A stretch of 32,911 nt of DNA. Origin: Nesterenkonia sp. F. GTDB taxonomy: Bacteria; Actinomycetota; Actinomycetes; Actinomycetales; Micrococcaceae. Positions 10,601 to 21,317 of the stretch are shown piece by piece (within the stretch, counting starts at the first letter, position 1; each line of letters starts with the position of its first letter). The stretch covers positions 1 to 32,911 of the forward strand of contig NZ_AFRW01000088.1 in the NCBI RefSeq assembly GCF_000220985.1, given 5' to 3'. Position numbers and translations under genes: made by a program. The notes below the pieces were generated by a model that made no database searches, had not been told where the DNA came from, and saw nothing but the letters and a program-made list of their open reading frames with translations.

Positions 10601-11122
10601 ATGGCACAGCTCACCGGCACGCTCGAAGAAGCATTCAACGAGCAGGTCACCCTGGAGCTGGAGGCCTCGCTGGTCTACCGTCAGCTGGGCATCGAGATGG
10701 ACATGCTGGACCTGCCCGGCATGGCGTCCTGGTTCCGCGCGCAGGCGGACGAGGAGGTCGTCCACGCCAACAAGTTCATCGGCCATATGACCGACCGCGA
10801 CGCCCACCCGCGGATCCGGGCGGTGCCTGCGATCTCGGTCTCCGCCACCTCGGTGCTGGAGGCCTTCGAGGCCTCGCTGGGTCACGAGCGGCGGGTCTCC
10901 GAGTCGATCCGGAACCTGTACCGGCTGGCGCAGCAGGAGGGCGACATCGACGCCCTGCCGCTGCTGAACTGGTTCATCGACGAGCAGCTCGAGGAGGAGG
11001 CGACGATCTCCGAGCTGATCGGCAAGGTGAAGCTCATCGCCGACGACGGCCCCGGCCTGTTGCGCCTGGACCAGGAGCTCGGCGCCCGGCAGTCGTCCGG
11101 CACGGAGGCCGACGCCCAGTGA
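10601..11122 (+). CDS. ferritin (non-haem)
   Basis: A 173-residue iron-storage protein that oxidises Fe(II) and stores it as mineral in a 24-mer shell. Four-helix ferritin fold with the ferroxidase ligands readable by alignment to E. coli FtnA: Glu19 (VTLELEASLVY), Glu52 and His55 (DEEVVHANKF), Glu96 (GHERR), Gln129 and Glu132 (IDEQLEEE). No haem-ligating Met of bacterioferritin is evident. The ATG at 10601 is preceded by GAGGAG with a slightly long spacer. The gene is monocistronic and ends before a strong hairpin shared with the convergent regulator gene. Confidence 0.93.
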   Translation: MAQLTGTLEEAFNEQVTLELEASLVYRQLGIEMDMLDLPGMASWFRAQADEEVVHANKFIGHMTDRDAHPRIRAVPAISVSATSVLEAFEASLGHERRVSESIRNLYRLAQQEGDIDALPLLNWFIDEQLEEEATISELIGKVKLIADDGPGLLRLDQELGARQSSGTEADAQ

Positions 11123-11148
11123 CCCGCTGAGTGCCGCCCTCCCGGCGC

Positions 11149-11204
11149 TGACTCGGCGGAAAGCGTGGGAAAGCGCCCGTATTCCCACGCTTTCCGCCGA
11201 GTCA
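11149..11204. terminator. perfect 23-bp inverted repeat between convergent genes
   Basis: The arms at 11149-11171 and 11182-11204 are exact reverse complements (23 bp) around a 10-nt loop. The inner half of the stem (AAAGCGTGGGAA) is less GC-rich than the surroundings. It lies between ferritin (+) and gntR (-) stops and should terminate both directions. The stem is unusually long and perfect for a terminator. Confidence 0.75.
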
Positions 11205-11234
11205 TCGCGGAGGGGCGTCATCGCGGAGGAGGAA

Positions 11235-11942
11235 TCAGCGCTCGGCGGCGTCTGAGGCGGCGTCGTCGGTGCCCGCGTGCTCGGTCTGGCGGATCAGCCG
11301 ATCGAGCGCCTCATGCATATGCGCCTCGATCTCGCGCATCAGCGCAGCCTCGTCGGCGGCGACGATCGCCTCGGCGATGCGCCGATGCTCGGCGACCTGC
11401 TCCTCGGGATCCAGATAGGTGCCCTGCAGCGCGGTCAGGCACATCCGCGTCTCGACCATCAGCGTCTCGTGCATCCGGCGCAGCCGCGGGCTGCCGGACA
11501 TCGTCACCAGCAGCTCGTGGAAGTCGAAGTCGGCGTCGGAGAGCGTCGACAGCCGTCCCGACTCGGCGGCGCGCTGCATCGCGTCGCAGGCCTCGAGCAG
11601 CGCCGTCGACGGCTCCGAGCTCGGCGAGCGGACGATCATCCGCGCCGCGGCCGTCTCGATGGCGATGCGCGCGGCGTAGAGGTCGCGGATCTCGTCGTCG
11701 TCGAGCTCCTTGACGAACAGCCCGCGGTTCGGCTCGCTGCGCACCAGTCCCTCCTGGACCAGGCGCTGCATCGCCTCGCGCAGCGGCCCGCGGCTGACGC
11801 CGAACTCCTGCGACAGCGCGGACTCGGAGAGCTGCGTGCCGCCGGGCAGGGAACCGTACATGATCCCCTCGCGCAGCTGGCGGGTGATCAGCGAGGCGGT
11901 GGACTCGCGGTTCACCGGGCGGAATTCCGGGCTCTTCCTCAT
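11235..11942 (-). CDS. GntR-family transcriptional regulator, FCD subfamily
   Basis: A 235-residue regulator. The N-terminal winged helix (about 10-75) reads ASLITRQLREGIMYGSLPGG then LSESALSQEFGVSRGPLREA, the classic GntR helix-turn-helix. Residues about 85-215 are an all-helical FCD ligand-binding domain with the candidate metal ligands Asp (DADFDFHELL), His and the late EHRRIAEAI histidine. The ATG at 11942 begins the first family-like residues, though the nearest AAGGAG is about 17 nt away. It is the last gene of a leftward unit with two racemase-family genes. A near-palindrome at 12008-12021 just upstream suggests autoregulation. Its ligand is probably an acid of the local pathway (inference). 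Confidence 0.9.
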   Translation of the reverse strand: MRKSPEFRPVNRESTASLITRQLREGIMYGSLPGGTQLSESALSQEFGVSRGPLREAMQRLVQEGLVRSEPNRGLFVKELDDDEIRDLYAARIAIETAAARMIVRSPSSEPSTALLEACDAMQRAAESGRLSTLSDADFDFHELLVTMSGSPRLRRMHETLMVETRMCLTALQGTYLDPEEQVAEHRRIAEAIVAADEAALMREIEAHMHEALDRLIRQTEHAGTDDAASDAAER

Positions 11943-12007
11943 GGCGGCTGCGGTGTCATCTCCTTCGCGACGGCGTCGCCGGGACGCCCCGACGGTGCAG
12001 ATCTGCA

Positions 12008-12021
12008 GATTGTCGACGATC
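12008..12021. promoter_or_regulatory. second copy of the putative GntR operator
   Basis: GATTGTCGACGATC between gntR and the upstream racemase gene matches the core of the palindrome at 13746-13765 (GATTGTTGACAATC) at 12 of 14 positions. Confidence 0.45.
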
Positions 12022-12025
12022 CATC

Positions 12026-12814
12026 CTATCGGCTCGCCCCCGAGGCGTCCGACGGCGTCGTCGTCCGTCCCAGCCGGCCGAGCTGCGGCAGCGCGGGCAT
12101 CGGGCGGCCGGTCAGCCGCAGCCCCTCCCAGACGGTGACCTGGTTCGCCGTCAGCACCGGCTTGCCGAGGGTGTGCTCGACGTCGGCGACCCAGTCCAGC
12201 GAATGCAACGCCGTATCGGGCACCAGCACCGCCTCGACCTCGTCGGTGTCGACCGAGCGGATCATCGTCAGCATCAGATCGCGTCCCAGATGCCCCACCT
12301 CGGCGGCGGTGAACACGCCTTCGGCGGCGAAGGTCGCGACGTCGACGCCGTGCTCGGTCAGGAATCCGCGGAAGTGCTCGGCCAGCGGCTGCGGATAGGA
12401 GGCGGCGACGCCGACGCATCCCACGTCCAGGGCTTCCAGAGCGTGGGCGAAGGCCAGCGACGTCGACGACGTCGGCACGCCGGAGACTTCCTGGAGCGCC
12501 TCGACCTGCGTCTGGGCGCCGTCGCGGCCGAAGACGAAGCTGCCGGAGGTGCAGGCCCACATCAGCGCGTCGACGGCGTGGGCGGCCTGCAGTCGGCCGG
12601 CGCCCTCGGCCAGCCGCTCGTGCGATCCGGTCTCGCGCAGCGCCTCGACGGTGTGCTCGTCGACGCCGATGGTGGTGTGCACCAGCGGCAGGCGCAGCGC
12701 CTGGGGCTCGGCGGCGGCCAGGCGGGGATAGTCGTCCTCGGCGGCGTGGCCGGGGTAGAGGATGCCGACGGTCGGCGGGGCGACGGCGGCGTCGCGGGCG
12801 GGTGCGGGCGTCAT
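12026..12814 (-). CDS. Asp/Glu racemase superfamily protein (maleate isomerase/AMDase-like), copy 1
   Basis: A 262-residue cytoplasmic protein related to maleate isomerases and arylmalonate decarboxylases. ATG at 12814 with GGAG 6 nt upstream. The first half carries the catalytic-type cysteine in MWACTSGSFVFG. At the place of the second catalytic cysteine it reads VLVPDTALHSLDWV, an Asp instead of Cys, followed by the conserved LGKPVLTANQVTVWEGL. With one cysteine only, the classical two-base racemase mechanism looks impossible, so a decarboxylase, lyase or isomerase variant is more likely (inference). It lies 71 bp downstream of a paralogue that has both cysteines. Confidence 0.85.
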   Translation of the reverse strand: MTPAPARDAAVAPPTVGILYPGHAAEDDYPRLAAAEPQALRLPLVHTTIGVDEHTVEALRETGSHERLAEGAGRLQAAHAVDALMWACTSGSFVFGRDGAQTQVEALQEVSGVPTSSTSLAFAHALEALDVGCVGVAASYPQPLAEHFRGFLTEHGVDVATFAAEGVFTAAEVGHLGRDLMLTMIRSVDTDEVEAVLVPDTALHSLDWVADVEHTLGKPVLTANQVTVWEGLRLTGRPMPALPQLGRLGRTTTPSDASGASR

Positions 12815-12885
12815 CTGGACTCCTTCGTCGTCTCGGGCGGTCGGTGTCGTCGGTGTCGTCGGGGCGTTCGGGACCCCGCGTCGGC

Positions 12886-13707
12886 TCAGACGGCCGGTTC
12901 GGCCGCCGACAGCCGCGGCGTCGCGCGCAGCGCGGCTCCCGGTCCGGCGTAGGGCACGTCGAGGTGGCGCATCACCTGCCAGATCGTCGCCTGGTTCGCC
13001 GAGATCACCGGTTTGCCCAGGTCGTGCTCCAGGGCGTCGAGGACCTCGTAGGTGGGCAGGTTGGTGCAGGAGACCACGACGGCGTCGGCGCGATCGCTGT
13101 CGGCGGCGCGCACCAGGTCGTAGGTGCGCTCCGGCGGCACCGTCCAGATGCGCCCGGAGAGGCCGAGATTGGCGTTGTTCATCAGGTGTATGTCGGCCTC
13201 GGCGAAGAACGCCGCGAACTGGGCGGTGATCGCGTCGTCGTACGGCGTCGCCGTGGCGATGGTCTCCGCTCCCAGCGCCCGGACGGCGTCGAGCAGCGCT
13301 CCGGAGGTGGTGAAGGCCGGCACCGGCACGGCCGCGCGCATCGCTCGCCGCAGGGCGCGCTCGCCGGTGCGGCCGCGGATGAAGCTGCCCGAGGTGCAGC
13401 CGTAGACGGTCGCCTCCGGCCCGGTCTCGGCGATCGATCGGGCGCAGTCGGCGATCGCCCGCGGCTTCGAGATCGCCCGCGCCTGGCGCACGGTGACCTT
13501 CATCGGCTCGAAGCGCGTGCGGGTGAACAGCAGGTCCAGCTGTTCGGCGCCGGCGGGGTCGGCGGTGAACCGTCGCAGCTCGCGATCCAGCGCCATGTCG
13601 TAGGGGACCACCATGCCGACGGCCGGCTGCCGCGGCGCCGGCTGGAGCGGCGCGCGAGCCTCGGCACGAGCGGACTCGTCGGGGCGGTGAGCGGGGGAGA
13701 GGGCCAT
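12886..13707 (-). CDS. Asp/Glu racemase superfamily protein (maleate isomerase-like), copy 2
   Basis: A 273-residue paralogue of the neighbouring gene. The N-terminal 27 residues are a Pro/Ala/Arg-rich extension, then AVGMVVPYDMALDRELRRF. Both catalytic-type cysteines are present: VYGCTSGSFIRG and VVVSCTNLPTYEVL, followed by LGKPVISANQATIWQVM. Maleate isomerases of this family use such a pair for cis-trans isomerisation, and related enzymes racemise Asp or Glu. ATG at 13707, TTGGAG 8 nt upstream. First gene of the leftward unit, divergent from the dehydrogenase gene and next to the putative operator. The precise reaction is not known. Confidence 0.87.
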   Translation of the reverse strand: MALSPAHRPDESARAEARAPLQPAPRQPAVGMVVPYDMALDRELRRFTADPAGAEQLDLLFTRTRFEPMKVTVRQARAISKPRAIADCARSIAETGPEATVYGCTSGSFIRGRTGERALRRAMRAAVPVPAFTTSGALLDAVRALGAETIATATPYDDAITAQFAAFFAEADIHLMNNANLGLSGRIWTVPPERTYDLVRAADSDRADAVVVSCTNLPTYEVLDALEHDLGKPVISANQATIWQVMRHLDVPYAGPGAALRATPRLSAAEPAV

Positions 13708-13745
13708 CGGCGGCTCCAATCGCGGACGTGCTGACGAGTCTCCAT

Positions 13746-13765
13746 GAAGATTGTTGACAATCTTC
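13746..13765. promoter_or_regulatory. perfect 20-bp palindrome, putative GntR operator
   Basis: GAAGATTGTTGACAATCTTC is a perfect palindromic repeat (two 9-bp arms, 2-bp centre) in the divergent promoter region of the catabolic locus. The TTGT..ACAA core resembles sites of FadR/FCD-type GntR regulators, such as the one encoded at 11235-11942. Confidence 0.7.
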
Positions 13766-13783
13766 TGAAGGTCTCCATAGCAT
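13754..13783 (+). promoter_or_regulatory. rightward promoter of the catabolic locus
   Basis: TTGACA (13754-13759), 18-bp spacer, TAGCAT (13778-13783). The -35 lies inside the palindrome, so a bound repressor would exclude RNA polymerase. The leader to the ATG at 13895 is about 105 nt. Confidence 0.55.
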
Positions 13784-13894
13784 AGCCGCACAGTCGCCCC
13801 GTCGGGAAGCACCCGCCGGGGAGGACCCACCACATCCTTCCGCCGGGCGCCGGCGGAGGCCCCGAGGCCCCTCGACAGCACCCGGAGGTGACCG

Positions 13895-14890
13895 ATGGCG
13901 AGCACTCTGCCGGTCGTCACAGTCCTGTGCCCCGCCGGTGTCGACGGCGTCGACGGCGCCGACGCCCCCGCCGGGCTCGACACGCTCCGCGACCGGGCGG
14001 AGATCCGCACCGTCGTCGCCGAGGACCTCGCCGACGGACTGCGCGGCGCCGACGCCCTATTCCTCTGGGACTTCTTCTCCAGCGCCGTCTCCGACGCCTG
14101 GCACGCCGCCGACGCGCTGCGCTGGATCCATGTGGCCGCCGCCGGCGTCGACAAGATGCTCTTCGACGAGCTGATCGCATCCGACGTGGTGGTCACCAAC
14201 GCGCAGGGCATCTTCGACCGCCCCATCGCCGAGTACGTGCTCGGGGCGGTCATCGCCCGGGCCAAGGACTTCGCCGGCAGCCTCACCCGTCAGCACGACG
14301 GCGTCTGGGAGCACCGCGAGACGCATCAGGTGCGCGGCAGCACTGCGCTGGTCATCGGCACCGGCGCCATCGGCCGCGAGATCGCGACGCTGCTGCGCGC
14401 CGTCGGCGTGGAGGTCTTCGCCGCCGGCCGCACCGCCCGCTCGGACGATCCCGACTTCGGCACGGTGATCGCCAGCGAGGACCTCGCCGCGCACATCGGG
14501 GCGGCCGACCACATCATCAACGCCGCCCCGCTGACCCCGCAGACCCGCGGACTGATCGACGGGGACGCGCTGTCCGCCGTCGCCGAGGGTGCGCATCTGG
14601 TCAACATCGGCCGCGGCGAATCCGTGGACGAGGCCGCCCTGGTCGAGGCTCTGGACTCCGGGCCGCTGGGCTTCGCCACCCTGGACGTCTTCGCCGTCGA
14701 GCCGCTGCCGGAGGACTCCCCGCTCTGGGGGCGGGAGGACGTGCTGCTCTCGGCGCACATGTCCGGCGACGTCGTCGGCTGGCGCGACGCGCTGGCCGAG
14801 CAGTTCCTCGACAACGCGCGGCGGTGGCTCGATCGCGAGCCGCTGGCCAACGTGGTCGACAAGGAGAGGGGCTACGTGCCCCGCACCTGA
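13895..14890 (+). CDS. D-isomer-specific 2-hydroxyacid dehydrogenase
   Basis: A 331-residue NAD(P)-dependent enzyme that interconverts a 2-oxoacid and a D-2-hydroxyacid. The nucleotide-binding segment ALVIGTGAIGREIATLLRAV lies at about 150-169. Catalytic residues are Arg240 (NIGRGESVDEAALV), Glu269 (VFAVEPLPEDSPLW) and His288 (LLSAHMSGD), approximate numbering. ATG at 13895 with GGAGGTGA upstream. First gene of the rightward unit, directly behind the palindrome-controlled promoter. Together with the FAD/Fe-S D-2-hydroxyacid dehydrogenase at the end of the unit it points to a 2-hydroxyacid intermediate in the pathway. Its substrate is unknown. Confidence 0.9.
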   Translation: MASTLPVVTVLCPAGVDGVDGADAPAGLDTLRDRAEIRTVVAEDLADGLRGADALFLWDFFSSAVSDAWHAADALRWIHVAAAGVDKMLFDELIASDVVVTNAQGIFDRPIAEYVLGAVIARAKDFAGSLTRQHDGVWEHRETHQVRGSTALVIGTGAIGREIATLLRAVGVEVFAAGRTARSDDPDFGTVIASEDLAAHIGAADHIINAAPLTPQTRGLIDGDALSAVAEGAHLVNIGRGESVDEAALVEALDSGPLGFATLDVFAVEPLPEDSPLWGREDVLLSAHMSGDVVGWRDALAEQFLDNARRWLDREPLANVVDKERGYVPRT

Positions 14891-14937
14891 GTGAGGCGCC
14901 CGCGACCGCGGCGCCCGGCTTCCGAGGAGGTAGTGGC

Positions 14938-16434
14938 ATGAGGGATCCGGCTGAGATGACGGCCGTCGAGCTCGTCGCGGGGTACCGCGCGGGCGACCTG
15001 TCCCCGGTGGAGGCCGCCGAGGCGTGCCTGGCTCGGATCCACGCCCGGGACGCGTCGCTCAACGCCTTCGTGCTGGTCGAGGACGAGGCCGCGCTGACCG
15101 CCGCTCGCGAGTCCGAGGCGCGCTGGGCGCAGGGGAGGCCGCTCGGGCCGGCCGACGGCGTGCCGATGACGATCAAGGACATGTTCCCCACCGTCGGAGC
15201 TCCCACGGTGAAGGGCAGCCGGCTGCTCGACGCCGACGACGACGCGCTGGACTTCGACGCGCCCTGCGTGGCTCGGCTGCGCGAGGCCGGGGCTGTGCGG
15301 CTGGGCAAGACGACGACCCCGGAGTTCGCGTGGAAGGGCACCACCGACAGCCTGCGCCACGGGGCCACCGGCAACCCGTGGGACACGACGACGACGCCGG
15401 GCGGCTCCTCGGGAGGCGCCGCGGCCGCAGTGGCCTCCGGGATGGGCGCCTGGGCGGTGGGCACCGACGGCGGCGGATCGGTGCGCATCCCCGCCTCCTT
15501 CACCGGCACAGTGGCGCTGAAGCCCACCTACGGCACGGTGCCGATGTACCCTTCCTCGCCCTTCGGCACGCTGGCCCACGCCGGTCCGATGGCCCGGACG
15601 GTCACCGATGCGGCGGTGCTGCTGGACGTCATCTCCGGCTTCGACTCGCGCGACTGGTCGGCGCTGCCGATGCCGACGGCGTCCTTCACCGAGGGGCTCG
15701 AGGACGGGATCGCCGGGCTGCGCATCGCCTACTCGCCGACGCTGGGCTTCGGCAGCAACGATCCGGAGGTCGAGCGGCTCGTCGCCGAGGCGGTCGAGGT
15801 CCTGGCGGCCCAGGGGGCGACGGTGGAGCAGGTCGACCCGGGGCTGTCGGATCCGGTGGAGGCCTTCCACATCCTCTGGTTCACCGGGGCGGCGAAGGTC
15901 CTCGAGCCCTTCGGCCCGGACGCGCTCGAGCGGGTCGACCCGGGGCTGCGTCGGGGCATCGAACAGCATCTGGACGATTCCGCGCTGGACTATCTGGGGG
16001 CGACGGCCCGGCGCATGGACATGGGCGTGCGCATGGGCGCCTTCCACGAGACCTATGACCTGCTGGTCACTCCGACGATGCCGATCACCGCCTTCAGCAA
16101 GGAGCGGCAGACGCCGGAGGGGTGGGGGTCGGAGTCCTGGACCAGCTGGACGCCCTACACCTATCCGTTCAACATGACTCAGCAGCCGGGCGCCTCGGTG
16201 CCCTGCGGGACCACCTCGACGGGCATGCCGGTCGGTCTGCAGATCGTCGGGGCGCGGACGCAGGACCGGCTGGTGCTGCGCGCCGCGCGCGCCTACGAGC
16301 GGGCCGCCGGCGAGGGCTTCGCCCGCCCGGTGGAGCTCGACGAGGCGCGGCGTCGCGCGTCCGGCGTCGAGGCGGGATTCGGCGCGGCCGCCGACTCGGG
16401 GTCCGCCGACCAGACCACGAGCATCGGGAGGTGA
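14938..16434 (+). CDS. amidase (amidase signature family)
   Basis: A 498-residue hydrolase of normal family length that cleaves a C-N amide bond. The Ser-cisSer-Lys triad is present: Lys at about 80 (PMTIKDMFPTVG), the cis-Ser in TPGGSSGGAAAAVASG near 155, and the nucleophile in VGTDGGGSVRIPASFTG near 180. ATG at 14938 with GAGGAGG upstream. The frame is open far upstream, but that part overlaps the dehydrogenase gene in another frame and is not coding. It lies 47 bp after the dehydrogenase and 2 bp before the DUF3830 gene, hence the same operon. The C-terminal 35 residues are a divergent tail. The amide substrate is unknown; maleamate-type or N-acyl compounds are possibilities, not evidence-based. 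Confidence 0.92.
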   Translation: MRDPAEMTAVELVAGYRAGDLSPVEAAEACLARIHARDASLNAFVLVEDEAALTAARESEARWAQGRPLGPADGVPMTIKDMFPTVGAPTVKGSRLLDADDDALDFDAPCVARLREAGAVRLGKTTTPEFAWKGTTDSLRHGATGNPWDTTTTPGGSSGGAAAAVASGMGAWAVGTDGGGSVRIPASFTGTVALKPTYGTVPMYPSSPFGTLAHAGPMARTVTDAAVLLDVISGFDSRDWSALPMPTASFTEGLEDGIAGLRIAYSPTLGFGSNDPEVERLVAEAVEVLAAQGATVEQVDPGLSDPVEAFHILWFTGAAKVLEPFGPDALERVDPGLRRGIEQHLDDSALDYLGATARRMDMGVRMGAFHETYDLLVTPTMPITAFSKERQTPEGWGSESWTSWTPYTYPFNMTQQPGASVPCGTTSTGMPVGLQIVGARTQDRLVLRAARAYERAAGEGFARPVELDEARRRASGVEAGFGAAADSGSADQTTSIGR

Positions 16435-16436
16435 GC

Positions 16437-16937
16437 ATGGCCCGTCGGCTGAGGATCGAGCTGACCCGGCGCGGAGTCAGCTGCACGGCACGACTCCTGG
16501 ACGAGCAGGCCCCGCGCACTGCTGATGCGGTGTGGGAGGCTCTGCCGCAGTCCGGGCAGGTCTATCACGGCAAGTACGCCCGCAACGAGATCTATGCGCT
16601 GGTCCCGCCGTTCGGCGGGATCGGGGACACCCGGGAGAACACCACGGTGACTCCTATTCCTGGTGACATCTGCTATTTTCACTTCACTCCTGAGCAGCTG
16701 GGCAATCCGGCCTACGGATATGATGCCGACTCCGAGGCCGGCACCGGCGACCTGGTGGATCTGGCGCTGTTCTACGGGCGGAACAATCTGCTGATCAACG
16801 GTGACCAGGGGTGGATCCCCGGCACAGTGGTCGCCACAGTGGAGGAGGGGCTGGAGGAGATGGCCGCCGCCTGCGCCTCCATCTGGATGGACGGCGCCCG
16901 GGGCGAGACGCTGGCCTTCAGCCGTCTGGAGGGCTGA
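16437..16937 (+). CDS. DUF3830 family protein
   Basis: A 166-residue protein starting MARRLRIELTRRGVSCTARL, ATG at 16437 with GGGAGGTGA overlapping the amidase stop. The pattern ARLLDEQAPRTADAVWEALP then YARNEIYALVPPF and TPIPGDICYFHF is that of the DUF3830 family, predicted to have a cyclophilin-like beta-barrel and of unknown function. It is tightly coupled to the amidase (2-nt gap) and followed after 72 bp by the FAD/Fe-S dehydrogenase. Location between two catabolic enzymes suggests an accessory or lyase/isomerase role in the same pathway; this is inference from context only. Confidence 0.8.
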   Translation: MARRLRIELTRRGVSCTARLLDEQAPRTADAVWEALPQSGQVYHGKYARNEIYALVPPFGGIGDTRENTTVTPIPGDICYFHFTPEQLGNPAYGYDADSEAGTGDLVDLALFYGRNNLLINGDQGWIPGTVVATVEEGLEEMAAACASIWMDGARGETLAFSRLEG

Positions 16938-16947
16938 GCTCGGAAGG

Positions 16948-16971
16948 CCGGGCCCGGACGATCGGGCCCGG
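16948..16971 (+). terminator. 9-bp hairpin in the operon spacer
   Basis: CCGGGCCCG (16948-16956) and CGGGCCCGG (16963-16971), perfect stem with GACGAT loop, 11 nt after the DUF3830 stop. No T-tract; may be an intra-operon attenuator or mRNA-stability element. Confidence 0.4.
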
Positions 16972-16980
16972 AGGACTGGA

Positions 16981-16994
16981 CCCGGCATGCCGGG
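16981..16994. repeat. palindrome CCCGGCATGCCGGG
   Basis: A perfect 14-bp palindrome 16 nt before the GTG of the FAD/Fe-S dehydrogenase gene. The same GGCATGCC core recurs at 21875-21884 and 32740-32755. Confidence 0.6.
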
Positions 16995-17009
16995 GGAGAG
17001 GAGCTGCAG

Positions 17010-19948
17010 GTGACCGCGACGCTCGCCCAGCGTGACGACGACGTCGACGCCGGCCGGCAGATCGCCGAGAGGCTGCGCGCCGCCGGCGTGGGCGGCGTGG
17101 ACGACTCGACGCTGACCCGGGGCATGTACTCCTCCGACGCCAGCCTCTATCGGGTGGTGCCGCAGGTCGTCGCCCGCCCCGACCACGTCGAGCAGCTCCA
17201 TGCCGTCCACGAGGTCTCCCGCGAGCTCGGCGTGCCGCTGACCCTGCGCGGGGCGGCACCTCGATCGCCGGCAACGCCGTCGGTGAGGGGATCGTCGTCG
17301 ACACCCGGGACCTCGACGGGATCCTGGAGATCGATCCCGAGGCCCGCACCGCCAGAGTGCAGCCCGGCGTCGTGCACGCGCAGCTGCAGTGCGCCGTCGC
17401 CGCCCACGGGCTGCGCTTCGGCCCCGATCCCTCGACCCACACTCGCTGCACGATCGGCGGGATGATCGGCAACAACGCCTGCGGCACGCGCGCGCTCGGC
17501 TACGGGCGGACGGTGGACAACCTGGTCTCGGCGCAGGTGCTCTTCGGCAACGGCGAGCTCGCCTCGCTGAGCGCCGACTCCACGGGGCTGACCTCCGCTC
17601 CCGGTTCCACCGCGGCGTCGCTGGCGGAGCTGGCGCAGGAGAACCTCGCTCACATCCGCACCCACTTCGGCCGCTTCGACCGGCAGGTCAGCGGCTATTC
17701 GCTGGAGCACCTGCTGCCCGAGCACCGCGGCCGCGTCGATCGCTTCCTGGTCGGCACCGAGGGCACGCTGGCCACGCTGCTGGAGGCCGAGGTCAATCTG
17801 GTCGCCGACGAGCCGAACCGGCTGCTGCTGGTGCTCGGCTATCCCGACGTCGGCGAGGCCGCGGATGCGGTGCCGGCTCTGCTGCAGGCCGCGCCCGGCC
17901 GGCTGATCGCCTGCGAGGGCATGGACTCTCGGCTGGTGAACCTGGTGCGCGGCGCGGGCAAGCCGGTCCCGGATCTGCCGAACGGGCGCAGCTGGCTCTT
18001 CGTCGAGGCCGCCGGCGAGGACGCCGCCGACGTCCTGGCCGCCGTCCGCGACGCCTCCGGGGCGGTCGGCACGCGCGTGGTGGATTCGACCGCCGAGGCC
18101 GCCGCGCTCTGGGGAATCCGCGCCGACGGCGCCGGACTGGCCGGCGTCAGCCTGGACACCCCGGCCCACTCCGGCTGGGAGGACGCCGCGGTGCCGCCCG
18201 AGCAGCTGGGCTCCTGGATGCGCGAGTTCGAGTCCCTGCTCGAGCAGTTCGGGCTGCACGGCTATCCCTACGGGCACTTCGGCGACGGCTGCATCCACTG
18301 CCGCATCGACTTCCCCTTCCACGCCGGGGACCCGGACTCCACCGGGGTCTTCGCCGAGTTCCTCGACGCCTGCGCCGAACGGCTGGCCGAGGTCGGCGGA
18401 TCGCTCTCCGGCGAGCACGGCGACGGGCGGGTGCGCTCCTCGCTGCTGGAGACGATGTACGACGAGACCTCGCGGGAGCTCTTCTCCGCGGCCAAGCAGC
18501 TCTGCGATCCCGACGGGCTGCTGAATCCCGGCATCATCGCCGACCCGGTGTCCAACACCCAGGACCTGCGTCCGGTGCGGCCGGCCGCGCAGCTGCCCTG
18601 GCCCGGGCTGCGGATGCGCCACGACGACGGCGACTTCGCCGCCGCAGTGCACCGGTGCACCGGCGTGGGCAAATGCGTCGCCCCGCAGACCTCCTCGGTG
18701 ATGTGCCCGTCCTATCTGGCCACCGGTCAGGAGAAGGACTCCACGCGCGGACGCGGGCGCATCCTGCAGGAGGCCGTCGACGGCTCGCTGGTCGACGGGC
18801 TGGCCGATCCGGCCGTCCACGAGGCGCTGGACCTCTGCCTGTCGTGCAAGGGCTGCGCCGTCGACTGCCCGGCCGGCGTGGACATGGCCGCCTATAAGTC
18901 CGAGGCGCTGCACCAGACCTACGACGTCGGCCCGGAGAAGCGGCGCCGCCCGCGGGCCCACTACTTCCTGGGGAGGCTGCCCTTCTGGGCCCGGCTGGCC
19001 GCGCCGTCGGCGAAGCTGCTCAACCGGGTCAGCGGCGTGGAGCCGCTGGCCGGCATCGCCAAGCGGATCGCCGGCATGGAGCCGCGGCGCGGAGTCCCGC
19101 AGTTCGCCGAGACCACGCTGCGTCGGGGTGCTCGGAAGGAGGTGCGGGAGGCGACGAAGGATGCCCGGAGCAAGGCGCCCGCGGCGGCGACTGCGGCCTC
19201 GCCGGCGCCCGACGTCTGGGTCTGGGCCGACTCCTTCACCGACCACTTCTTCCCGCAGTCCGGCCGCGCGGCCATCGAGTATCTGCGCGGGCAGGGTCTT
19301 CAGGTCCGCGTCATCGAGCAGCACGGCTGCTGCGGGCTGCCCTGGATCACCACCGGCCAGCTGGATCAGGCCCGCGGGCTCGTCGACGGCGTCGTCGGTC
19401 TGCTCGCCGGACATCTGGCCACCGGCGCGCCGGTGCTGGCGCTGGAGCCCTCCTGCCTGGCCACGCTGCGCTCCGACGTCCTGGAGCTGACGTCCCGGCC
19501 CGAGGCTCGCGACGTCGCCGCCGGAGTGCGCAGCTTCGCCGAGCTCGTCACCGAGCTGCACGCGGCAGGACGTGTCGAGCTGCCGGAGCTGGCCGGGGTG
19601 CGGGCGCTGGCGCAGCCGCACTGCCACCAGCGGGCGGTGGTGGGCTGGTCGGCGGACCGGGCGCTGCTCGAGGCGGCCGGAGCGCAGGTCGAGGACGTGT
19701 CCGGCTGCTGCGGGCTGGCCGGGAACTTCGGCGTCGAGGCCGGCCACTACGAGGTCAGCGTCGACGTCGCCGAGACCCACCTGCTGCCGGCGGTCCGCTC
19801 CGCCCGCGCCGAGGATCCGGAGACGGTGGTGCTGGCCGACGGGATGTCCTGCCGGATCCAGCTCGACGACCTCGCCGACGTCGAGGCGCGGCACCTGGCC
19901 GAGCTCTTCGCCGAGCGGGCGCCCTCGCGCGCCGCCGGAGCCGTCTGA
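17010..19948 (+). CDS. FAD/Fe-S D-2-hydroxyacid (D-lactate/glycolate-type) dehydrogenase, frameshifted
   Basis: A membrane-associated-type flavoprotein of about 979 residues if repaired. Order: FAD_binding_4 (GGMIGNNACGTRALGYGR), FAD-oxidase C domain ending EHGDGRVRSSLLE, cysteine cluster CTGVGKC...VMCPSY, 4Fe-4S motif CLSCKGCAVDCPAG, and two CCG-type motifs (HGCCGLPW, GCCGLAGNFG) of the cysteine-rich domain. It oxidises a D-2-hydroxyacid to the oxoacid and passes electrons to the respiratory chain. At 17255-17256 one G is missing: frame 1 reads LTLRGAAPRSPATP, while restoring a base gives LTLRGAGTSIAGNAVGEGIV, the expected FAD motif. GTG start with GAGGAG upstream. Last gene of the catabolic unit. 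Confidence 0.88.
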
Positions 19949-19979
19949 GTCTCCGGCGACGTCGCGAGGAGGCGCCGCG

Positions 19980-21317
19980 TCAGTCGTCCGGGCCGTTCTC
20001 GACGAGGGAGACGGCCCCATCCTCGCCGACGGTGATCTCCGCGCTCATCGCCGCGGCGAGGTTCAGCCGCTGCCAGCTCTCCTCCTCGCCCGCGTCGAGC
20101 GGGTGCCCCGACTCGGTCGCAGTCAGCGCCAGCACCTCGCGGCGCTGCTCGTCGGTCAGGTCCGGGCGGCTGGTGGCCAGCAGCGACTCGGCGCCCTCGG
20201 GGACGACGACCTCCTCGCCGGTCTCGCCGGCCAGCGGGAAGTCGTAGCTCATCTTGTCCTCGTAGTAGTCCAGCGCCTCGTCGGTGCTCATGTACGGTTC
20301 GTCCTGCGCGACGCAGGTCTCCAGCGCGGTGCCGCACTCCTCCTCGAGCACGCCTCGCAGCTCCTCGGAGGCGTCCTCCATGAGCTCGGCGAACTCGTCG
20401 TCGGCCCAGCGCAGCTGGACGATCTTCTGGCCCATCATCCGGCCGCCGATGACGTCGAGCGCGTAGTGGGCGCCCATGACGATGCGGTTGTCCCCGGCCT
20501 CCGCGGTGCGGGCGAGGATCTGCGGCGCGAGCTCGGGGAGCATCGTGGCCAGGGCGGTGCCCTGCCAGTAGGCCTGCGAGGTGTGTCCTGACGGGAAGGC
20601 GCCGCTGGTGGAGTCCCAGGCGTCGCCGCCCTCCTCGTCCACCAGCGTCAGGCGCCCGCCCTCCTCGGTGCTGTGCACGAGCTCGCCGTCGACCATGTTC
20701 ATCTGCAGGTACGGCCGGTCGACGTCGAAATAGGTCTTCGGCGGGTTCGTCGAGGCCTGGGCGCCGATCATGCCGCCGTCCTTGGACAGCAGCTTCTGCG
20801 TGAGCGGCAGCTCGCCGGCCTCCATGGCCTGCTCGTAGATCGCGCCGAGCTCCTCGCCCAGCCCGTCGGCCATCGTCAGTGACATGTCGCCGTACTGGTC
20901 GGTGATCGCGCGCTCGTGCTCCTCCGCGGAGGCCGTGGTGTTGATCTCGACGGTGATGTCGTCGTTGTAGGTCATCACCTCCTCGTTCCCCGACCCGGCG
21001 TGCTCGCCGTCGGTGCGCAGCGTGTCGAAGACGTCGAGCATGCGGATGGACCAGTTGTCCGGGTCGGGGTCCTCCTGTGACCCCGTGCTCGTGGTCTCGT
21101 CCGAGGCGTAGGAGACCTCAGCGGCGTCCGGACTCTCCGAACGTGCCGAGGCCTCCGGCGACTCGGCGGCGTCGGGGGGCTCGGCGGTCGACTGGTCGTC
21201 GCCCGCCCCGTCGGCCGTGGCGCCCGGGGCACAGCCGGCGAGGCTCGGGACGAGCAGCCCGGCTCCCAGGCCGAGCGCGGCGAACCGCCGGAGTGTGGTC
21301 CTGCTGTCTGTCTGCAC
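19980..21317 (-). CDS. PAP2-type (class A acid phosphatase-like) lipoprotein
   Basis: A 445-residue exported protein. GTG at 21317 with AGGAG upstream. The signal peptide begins with RR and ends in the lipobox LAGC, with Cys29 as the predicted lipid-modified residue. Residues 30-90 are an acidic Ser/Pro/Glu spacer. The PAP2 signature is present: GAFPSGHTSQAYW (about 235-247) and ARTAEAGDNRIVMGAHYALD (about 266-285), with the phosphate-binding Ser-Gly-His, the Arg, and His/Asp catalytic pair. Probably a surface phosphomonoesterase. The last 130 residues are an acidic C-terminal extension not part of the PAP2 fold. It ends 31 bp from the convergent FAD/Fe-S dehydrogenase. Confidence 0.85.
   Translation of the reverse strand: MQTDSRTTLRRFAALGLGAGLLVPSLAGCAPGATADGAGDDQSTAEPPDAAESPEASARSESPDAAEVSYASDETTSTGSQEDPDPDNWSIRMLDVFDTLRTDGEHAGSGNEEVMTYNDDITVEINTTASAEEHERAITDQYGDMSLTMADGLGEELGAIYEQAMEAGELPLTQKLLSKDGGMIGAQASTNPPKTYFDVDRPYLQMNMVDGELVHSTEEGGRLTLVDEEGGDAWDSTSGAFPSGHTSQAYWQGTALATMLPELAPQILARTAEAGDNRIVMGAHYALDVIGGRMMGQKIVQLRWADDEFAELMEDASEELRGVLEEECGTALETCVAQDEPYMSTDEALDYYEDKMSYDFPLAGETGEEVVVPEGAESLLATSRPDLTDEQRREVLALTATESGHPLDAGEEESWQRLNLAAAMSAEITVGEDGAVSLVENGPDD

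Follow-up and report, generated by a model that had tools for sequence, protein, structure and literature searches.

A DUF3830-containing gene cluster as the core of an operator-defined regulon in Actinomycetota with a probable role in ectoine degradation

In Nesterenkonia sp. F, a 32,911-nucleotide stretch of DNA (NZ_AFRW01000088.1, hereafter the window) carries, at positions 11,235 to 19,948, a divergent seven-gene locus encoding a GntR/FCD-family regulator, two AMDase/EutA-like proteins (RacA and RacB), an NAD-linked D-2-hydroxyacid dehydrogenase, an amidase-signature hydrolase, a DUF3830 protein and a FAD/Fe-S D-2-hydroxyacid dehydrogenase. We are nearly certain that this locus forms the core of a broad regulon in Actinomycetota, defined by a common operator. 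Judging from gene context, the regulon probably degrades ectoine and/or 5-hydroxyectoine. A previous sequence-only reading of the window had seen a co-regulated catabolic unit in these genes, and both the shared operator and the joint conservation of the genes in other genomes bear this out.

The main operator, AAGATTGTTGACAATCTT (13747-13764), is an exact palindrome in the 187-bp divergent region between the genes of RacB and the NAD dehydrogenase, and is found at the same place in relatives. A sigma-70-like promoter on the plus strand (TTGACA-18-TAGCAT, 13754-13783) has its -35 box inside the operator, TTGACA forming the centre of the palindrome. It is the sole promoter-like site within 11000-20100, where shuffled sequences gave a mean of 0.1. 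A second operator copy, GATTGTCGACGATC (12008-12021), with one mismatch to the consensus 14-bp core GATTGTNNACAATC, is positioned ahead of the GntR gene (11235-11942, minus strand; Pfam GntR 62.8 bits, FCD 82.8 bits). Hence, the single control region previously attributed to the seven genes stands as far as the divergent palindrome is concerned, but has to be completed by this second site. Because of its proximity, its family and the autoregulatory placement of the second copy, we infer that the GntR/FCD protein binds the operator sites. It would act as the regulon repressor by covering the -35 box at GATTGTNNACAATC, and would be released by an intermediate of the pathway.

To follow the operator in relatives, we used 39 DUF3830 loci (698,362 bases) obtained by a short-peptide-pattern scan of 84,980 species genomes; such a search retains only close relatives, several of the loci come from congeners, and 6 are shorter than 12 kb. 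The 14-bp core was found in 36 exact copies, or in 57 when up to one mismatch is allowed. In five dinucleotide shuffles of the same loci, no exact copy was found, and copies with at most one mismatch numbered 1, 0, 0, 0 and 0. Each of the 57 copies falls between -60 and 350 bp from where a cluster-associated gene starts; this interval accounts for 15% of the locus sequence. Overall, 29 of the 39 loci contain the operator, and its targets in relatives include genes for DoeA-like M24 proteins, aminotransferase, aldehyde dehydrogenase, DUF3830 and a ProP-like MFS transporter. In one genome (G008), copies precede RacA, RacB and EhuB, the last one 41 bp upstream of the called EhuB frame.

The window genome itself (G000; 2.81 Mb, 138 contigs) has only three operator sites, two in the locus and an exact one on contig 110 (18279-18292); the same pattern written backward, used as a control, gave no site in this genome. 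The contig 110 copy lies between divergent genes for a succinate-semialdehyde dehydrogenase (SSADH)-like protein (73% identical to that of Mycolicibacterium) and a class-III aminotransferase (67% to that of Prauserella). This pair (16744-19636) therefore shares the operator of the locus, and the regulon extends beyond the seven genes. A gene for a POT-family transporter, a candidate carrier, is found directly downstream of the operator-linked aminotransferase on contig 110 (L159, 11366-12850).

These data bear on the pathway put forward in the sequence-only reading, in which the seven genes would suffice to hydrolyse an amide, isomerise or decarboxylate a dicarboxylate, and then oxidise a D-2-hydroxyacid. 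The family assignments of all seven genes agree with it, as do the AMDase and maleate isomerase folds matched by RacA. However, a regulon that contains an aminotransferase and a semialdehyde-dehydrogenase-like gene on another contig, a FAD enzyme that is only accessory, and relatives that connect the gene set with Ehu-type ectoine importers and ectoine-hydrolase (DoeA)-like genes make a complete pathway starting from a generic amide or dicarboxylate quite unlikely. Nicotinate/maleamate or generic dicarboxylate catabolism was also set aside, as supporting neighbours were not seen.

Conservation of the gene set was assessed by the co-occurrence search that the earlier reading had suggested, with overlaps resolved and E<=1e-20. 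Besides DUF3830, the 39 loci contain RacA (28), RacB (29), the NAD dehydrogenase (26) and the amidase (26), and the five core genes are found together in 20 loci. The GntR regulator is present in 20, the FAD/Fe-S enzyme in 7, the class-III aminotransferase in 9, the SSADH-like dehydrogenase in 10, EhuB in 6 and the ProP-like MFS transporter in 5. An even sample of the phylum (296 genomes) gave 33 genomes with DUF3830, of which 15, including the window genome, encode the main subfamily (>180 bits). The five core genes co-localise in 11 of the 14 main-subfamily stretches other than the window (one of the 14 being a 5-kb contig), and in none of the 23 stretches around lower-scoring DUF3830 genes of other subfamilies. 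All or part of the set was observed in Nesterenkonia, Garicola, Mycolicibacterium, Mycobacterium, Streptomyces, Ornithinimicrobium, Segeticoccus, Prauserella, Leucobacter and Gandjariella, the closest named DUF3830 protein being that of N. halophila DSM 16378 (98% identical to the window protein).

Homologues of EhuA, EhuB, EhuC and EhuD are encoded next to the cluster in Streptomyces, Leucobacter and others; in most cases they are 55-60%, 32-48%, 46-49% and 44-50% identical, respectively, to those of Sinorhizobium medicae. NCBIfam names cluster-linked substrate-binding proteins (SBPs) EhuB (275 and 280 bits, cut-off 190.9), and their best PDB match is the ectoine-binding EhuB 2q88, which for the Leucobacter SBP scores 235 bits against 63 for the next one. 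Ehu genes stand beside the core or DUF3830 in 5 of the 14 sampled stretches, and in a second cluster in G008. Across the sample, an EhuB above the NCBIfam cut-off is encoded by 10 of the 15 main-DUF3830 genomes versus 13 of the 281 others (Fisher p 2e-9, a value inflated by kinship). At Glu21, Phe24, Tyr60, Phe80 and Arg85, which we take to be the EhuB pocket positions, all 13 cluster-linked SBPs keep a Glu, three aromatic residues and an Arg, and the SBPs of three true eut clusters show the identical kind of residues. The available text of PMC6344544 assigns roles to an Arg and to aromatic residues.

A second link is provided by DoeA-like M24 genes, present in 5 of the 39 loci (L039, L045, L050, L056, L057) and in L070. 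Their products are 41-45% identical to Sinorhizobium DoeA, and the genes carry operator copies. In some relatives, a protein of the M20 peptidase family is encoded beside the M24 one. Sinorhizobium-type EutC and DoeB were not found in the compared loci. In addition, apart from a EutB-like gene in L050, neither EutB nor EutC was found in the window or the compared main-subfamily loci, the rest of the window genome not being included in this search. No convincing EutD was found in a Halobacteriales relative (L067).

Several observations weigh against ectoines as the substrate. The window genome has no EutD-like match at E<=1e-60 and no EutE match, the locus encoding an amidase instead. Its best EhuB-like SBP reaches 158 bits (cut-off 190.9) and lacks one pocket aromatic, and the operon of this SBP has no operator copy. 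The third pocket aromatic is missing in the SBPs of G000, G050, G062, G074, G107 and G235, among which G050, G235 and G074 are, like G000 itself, DUF3830 genomes, and four main-subfamily genomes (G065, G098, G163, G270) gave no EhuB at E<=1e-40. An operator copy is lacking in 10 of the 39 loci, including five Streptomyces loci (L059, L061-L064); an IclR-type gene is present in L059, L061 and L064, of four operator-less Streptomyces loci compared (L059, L061, L063 and L064 or like). The DoeA-like M24 proteins score 380-416 bits for a family cut-off of 613, and DUF3830 coexists with them in all six loci named above. Finally, L050 has a gene 34% identical to EutB next to DUF3830.

The same regulon could thus serve another cyclic or N-acylated amino acid, which would be imported by a changed EhuB relative, opened, deacylated, transaminated and oxidised. 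The low M24 scores and the missing EutD and EutE matches fit such a substrate, as do the linked SBPs of Streptomyces type, just 35-39% identical to Sinorhizobium EhuB, and the nearest fold of DUF3830, which acts on Trp-derived rings. On the other hand, the pocket residues of all 13 linked SBPs fit the ectoine cage and match those of SBPs from true eut clusters within this phylum, and the operator targets include the DoeA-like M24 genes. We consider another substrate to be a real but minor possibility.

Regarding uptake, the sequence-only reading had noted that no transporter is present in the locus and that import must be encoded elsewhere, which our data support. An Ehu-like operon on contig 84 of the window genome was rejected as importer, its pocket being incomplete and an operator lacking. 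The genome encodes the ectoine synthase EctC, so ectoine is probably its own solute, which also speaks for the ectoine reading. With EctC present and no convincing linked importer, the cluster might recycle endogenous ectoine after osmotic down-shock instead of scavenging it; the importer genes that adjoin it in Streptomyces, Leucobacter and others make this highly improbable.

Eut-type clusters also exist in the phylum. The three sampled genomes that combine EutB with a DoeA scoring over 570 bits are devoid of DUF3830, which we count in favour of the ectoine reading. In their Actinomycetota loci L124, L125 and L126 (genomes G097, G108 and G194), we observed Ehu genes with DoeA (57-62% identity), EutB (49-55%) and, in two of the three, EutC; a GntR-type regulator, not of EnuR type, is encoded nearby. 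The operator was not found in these three loci at up to 2 mismatches.

RacA (12026-12814, minus strand; Pfam Amdase 62.8 bits) and RacB (12886-13707, minus strand; Pfam Amdase 104.8 bits) share with the AMDase/maleate isomerase/EutA branch of the Asp/Glu racemase superfamily their fold and the first active-site Cys. RacB has both active-site Cys, as in racemases and in EutA: the first is found in 42 and the second in 44 of 44 sequences, and Sinorhizobium EutA has Cys at both positions. RacA differs in that Asp occupies the position of the second Cys, the first one being part of a CTSGSF motif. Of 41 distinct RacA sequences, 37 have Cys and 4 have Ser at the first catalytic position, whereas all have Asp at the second. 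This Cys/Asp pair was not seen among the PDB relatives whose alignments were compared. The AlphaFold2 model of RacA (pLDDT 89) has as best Foldseek matches the AMDase 3dg9 and the maleate isomerase 4fq5. However, RacA and RacB score 103 and 96 bits against the EutA family TIGR02990 (cut-off 318) and 73-89 bits against the AMDase family (cut-off 225), and membership in either was set aside. In addition, the Gly74/Cys188 pair given for AMDase in the available text of PMC4996985 is present in neither, RacA having Cys/Asp and RacB Cys/Cys.

In five loci from genomes without main-type DUF3830 (L133-L135, L139, L140), Ehu genes are accompanied by a RacA-like gene, a dehydrogenase-like gene or both. 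In the three examined (L133, L139, L140), the RacA motif is altered, the variants being Ser/Gly, Cys/Gly and SPGG/Asp, and the L140 SBP has an incomplete pocket. These alterations perhaps reflect decay along with the pathway; Ehu-linked RacA from genomes without main-type DUF3830 was excluded from the residue counts above.

The DUF3830 protein (16437-16937, plus strand; Pfam DUF3830 202 bits) has a cyclophilin-like fold. In an alignment of 22 homologues, 38 positions are invariant, including His44, Lys46, Glu51, Glu67, Asn68, Arg115, Asn116 and Asn117. Its model (pLDDT 86) has PDB 3kop as top fold match, with a template-modelling (TM) score of 0.91. The next-best folds in this model-based comparison are KslB (E 2.7e-7, TMq 0.65) and McbB (E 2.5e-6), and McbB also gave a weak profile match to DUF3830 (E 0.03). 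KslB and McbB are bacterial Pictet-Spenglerases, which condense an amine with a carbonyl and close a ring. Since this fold is shared, one may reasonably guess that DUF3830 opens or closes the ring of a cyclic amidine, but it is about 16-19% identical to these proteins and about half their length. Considered as a plain replacement for DoeA, DUF3830 was rejected because the two coexist in six loci. Outside the main subfamily, L104 (genome G177, contig 23, 24402-25787) has three tandem DUF3830 genes of a different subfamily, and L114, on the Mesorhizobium plasmid pB1-1-8, has a distant DUF3830 gene together with GntR, TIGR04076, aldo/keto reductase and branched-chain ABC genes. The neighbourhood in L114 indicates that the family has other contexts.

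As for the remaining genes, profile searches against Pfam and NCBIfam agree with the earlier reading on the families and positions of all seven. On the plus strand, the NAD dehydrogenase (13895-14890; Pfam 2-Hacid_dh_C 153 bits) has Arg240, Glu269 and His288 at what are presumably the catalytic positions of its family. The amidase (14938-16434; Pfam Amidase 331 bits, NF004815 705 bits with a cut-off of 506) has Lys80, Ser157 and Ser181, which we take to be the amidase triad. The gaps of the rightward unit, described as short, measure 47, 2 and 72 bp, and those between the leftward genes 71 and 83 bp. The last gene (17010-19948) was correctly assigned to the FAD/Fe-S (YdiJ/GlcD-GlpC-like) D-2-hydroxyacid dehydrogenases, but it is an accessory member of the set, and a frameshift had been overlooked: aligned with an intact homologue of 978 aa from N. 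halophila (L031), the gene splits into two frames, joined at about 17,255, which were searched as separate pieces. This break may be a mutation or a sequencing error. Outside the locus, a long imperfect inverted repeat (11138-11215; 34-nt arms, 88% complementary, 10-nt loop) lies between the ferritin and GntR genes.

Under ectoine degradation, single steps can be assigned to enzymes only tentatively. The solute would enter through the Ehu-type ABC importer in some relatives, a ProP-like symporter, or, in the window genome, another carrier. The cyclic amidine would be opened by a hydrolase, the DoeA-like M24 protein where present and, as we propose, DUF3830 in its absence or alongside it. Deacetylation would then fall to the amidase, or to the M20 protein in some relatives. 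The class-III aminotransferase and the SSADH-like dehydrogenase would convert the terminal amine to a carboxylate, yielding aspartate or 3-hydroxyaspartate. The latter is itself a 2-hydroxyacid. RacB and RacA may establish or alter the stereocentre adjacent to the hydroxyl, and the hydroxyl-bearing carbon would be oxidised by the NAD dehydrogenase, plus the FAD/Fe-S enzyme in some strains.

The proteobacterial (hydroxy)ectoine clusters, ehuABCD-eutABCDE of Sinorhizobium and the doe genes of Halomonas, offer the closest comparison. The wider gene set resembles them by its Ehu-type importer, EutA-like protein, class-III aminotransferase, SSADH-like dehydrogenase and, in some cases, DoeA-like M24 protein, and a substrate-induced logic is assumed here as well. 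Unlike them, its core consists of two EutA-like paralogues, DUF3830, an amidase and a 2-hydroxyacid dehydrogenase, under an FCD-type GntR regulator instead of the MocR-type EnuR. The statement that no known pathway matches the locus thus holds for the exact gene set, on which no paper was found, but not for the kind of system. According to the available text of PMC8739950, the EnuR operator is ATTGTnnnnnnACAAT and overlaps promoter elements. The operator described here has the half-sites ATTGT/ACAAT in common with ATTGTnnnnnnACAAT and likewise overlaps promoter elements, but the half-sites are spaced by 2 instead of 6 and the regulator belongs to a different GntR subfamily.

From the portions available of the papers cited, Atf and Ssd act after deacetylation (PMC8739950; PMC13188858), the EutABC steps are still uncertain (PMC8739950), and hdhD, a hydroxyacid dehydrogenase gene of undefined role, occurs in some proteobacterial clusters (PMC5924519). 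The available text of PMC13188858, from 2026, terms ectoine use by Gram-positive bacteria unexpected and tentatively describes putative clusters in Actinomycetota and Bacillota with EutD homologues, amidohydrolase, aminotransferase, dehydrogenase and MFS, Ehu or BCCT transporters. Those clusters were found through EutD and EutB, and that text names neither Nesterenkonia, Mycolicibacterium nor Streptomyces, nor an amidase. No paper was found under DUF3830, PF12903 or 3KOP, despite the solved structure 3kop.

A more speculative view, which we judge possible though doubtful, is that the regulon constitutes a second, independently assembled actinobacterial route for 5-hydroxyectoine (and ectoine). 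It would by-pass EutBC and EutE, with DUF3830 as a new ring-opening enzyme built on the Pictet-Spenglerase fold, RacA as a Cys/Asp member of the racemase superfamily that has a new activity, 2-hydroxyacid dehydrogenases oxidising the hydroxyl group, and one FCD-type GntR repressor acting through GATTGTNNACAATC. Ectoine degradation by this regulon would assign a function to DUF3830 and add a second biochemical route by which ectoines are used. Through its operator, the regulon, and hence membership in the pathway, can be tested directly in many genomes.

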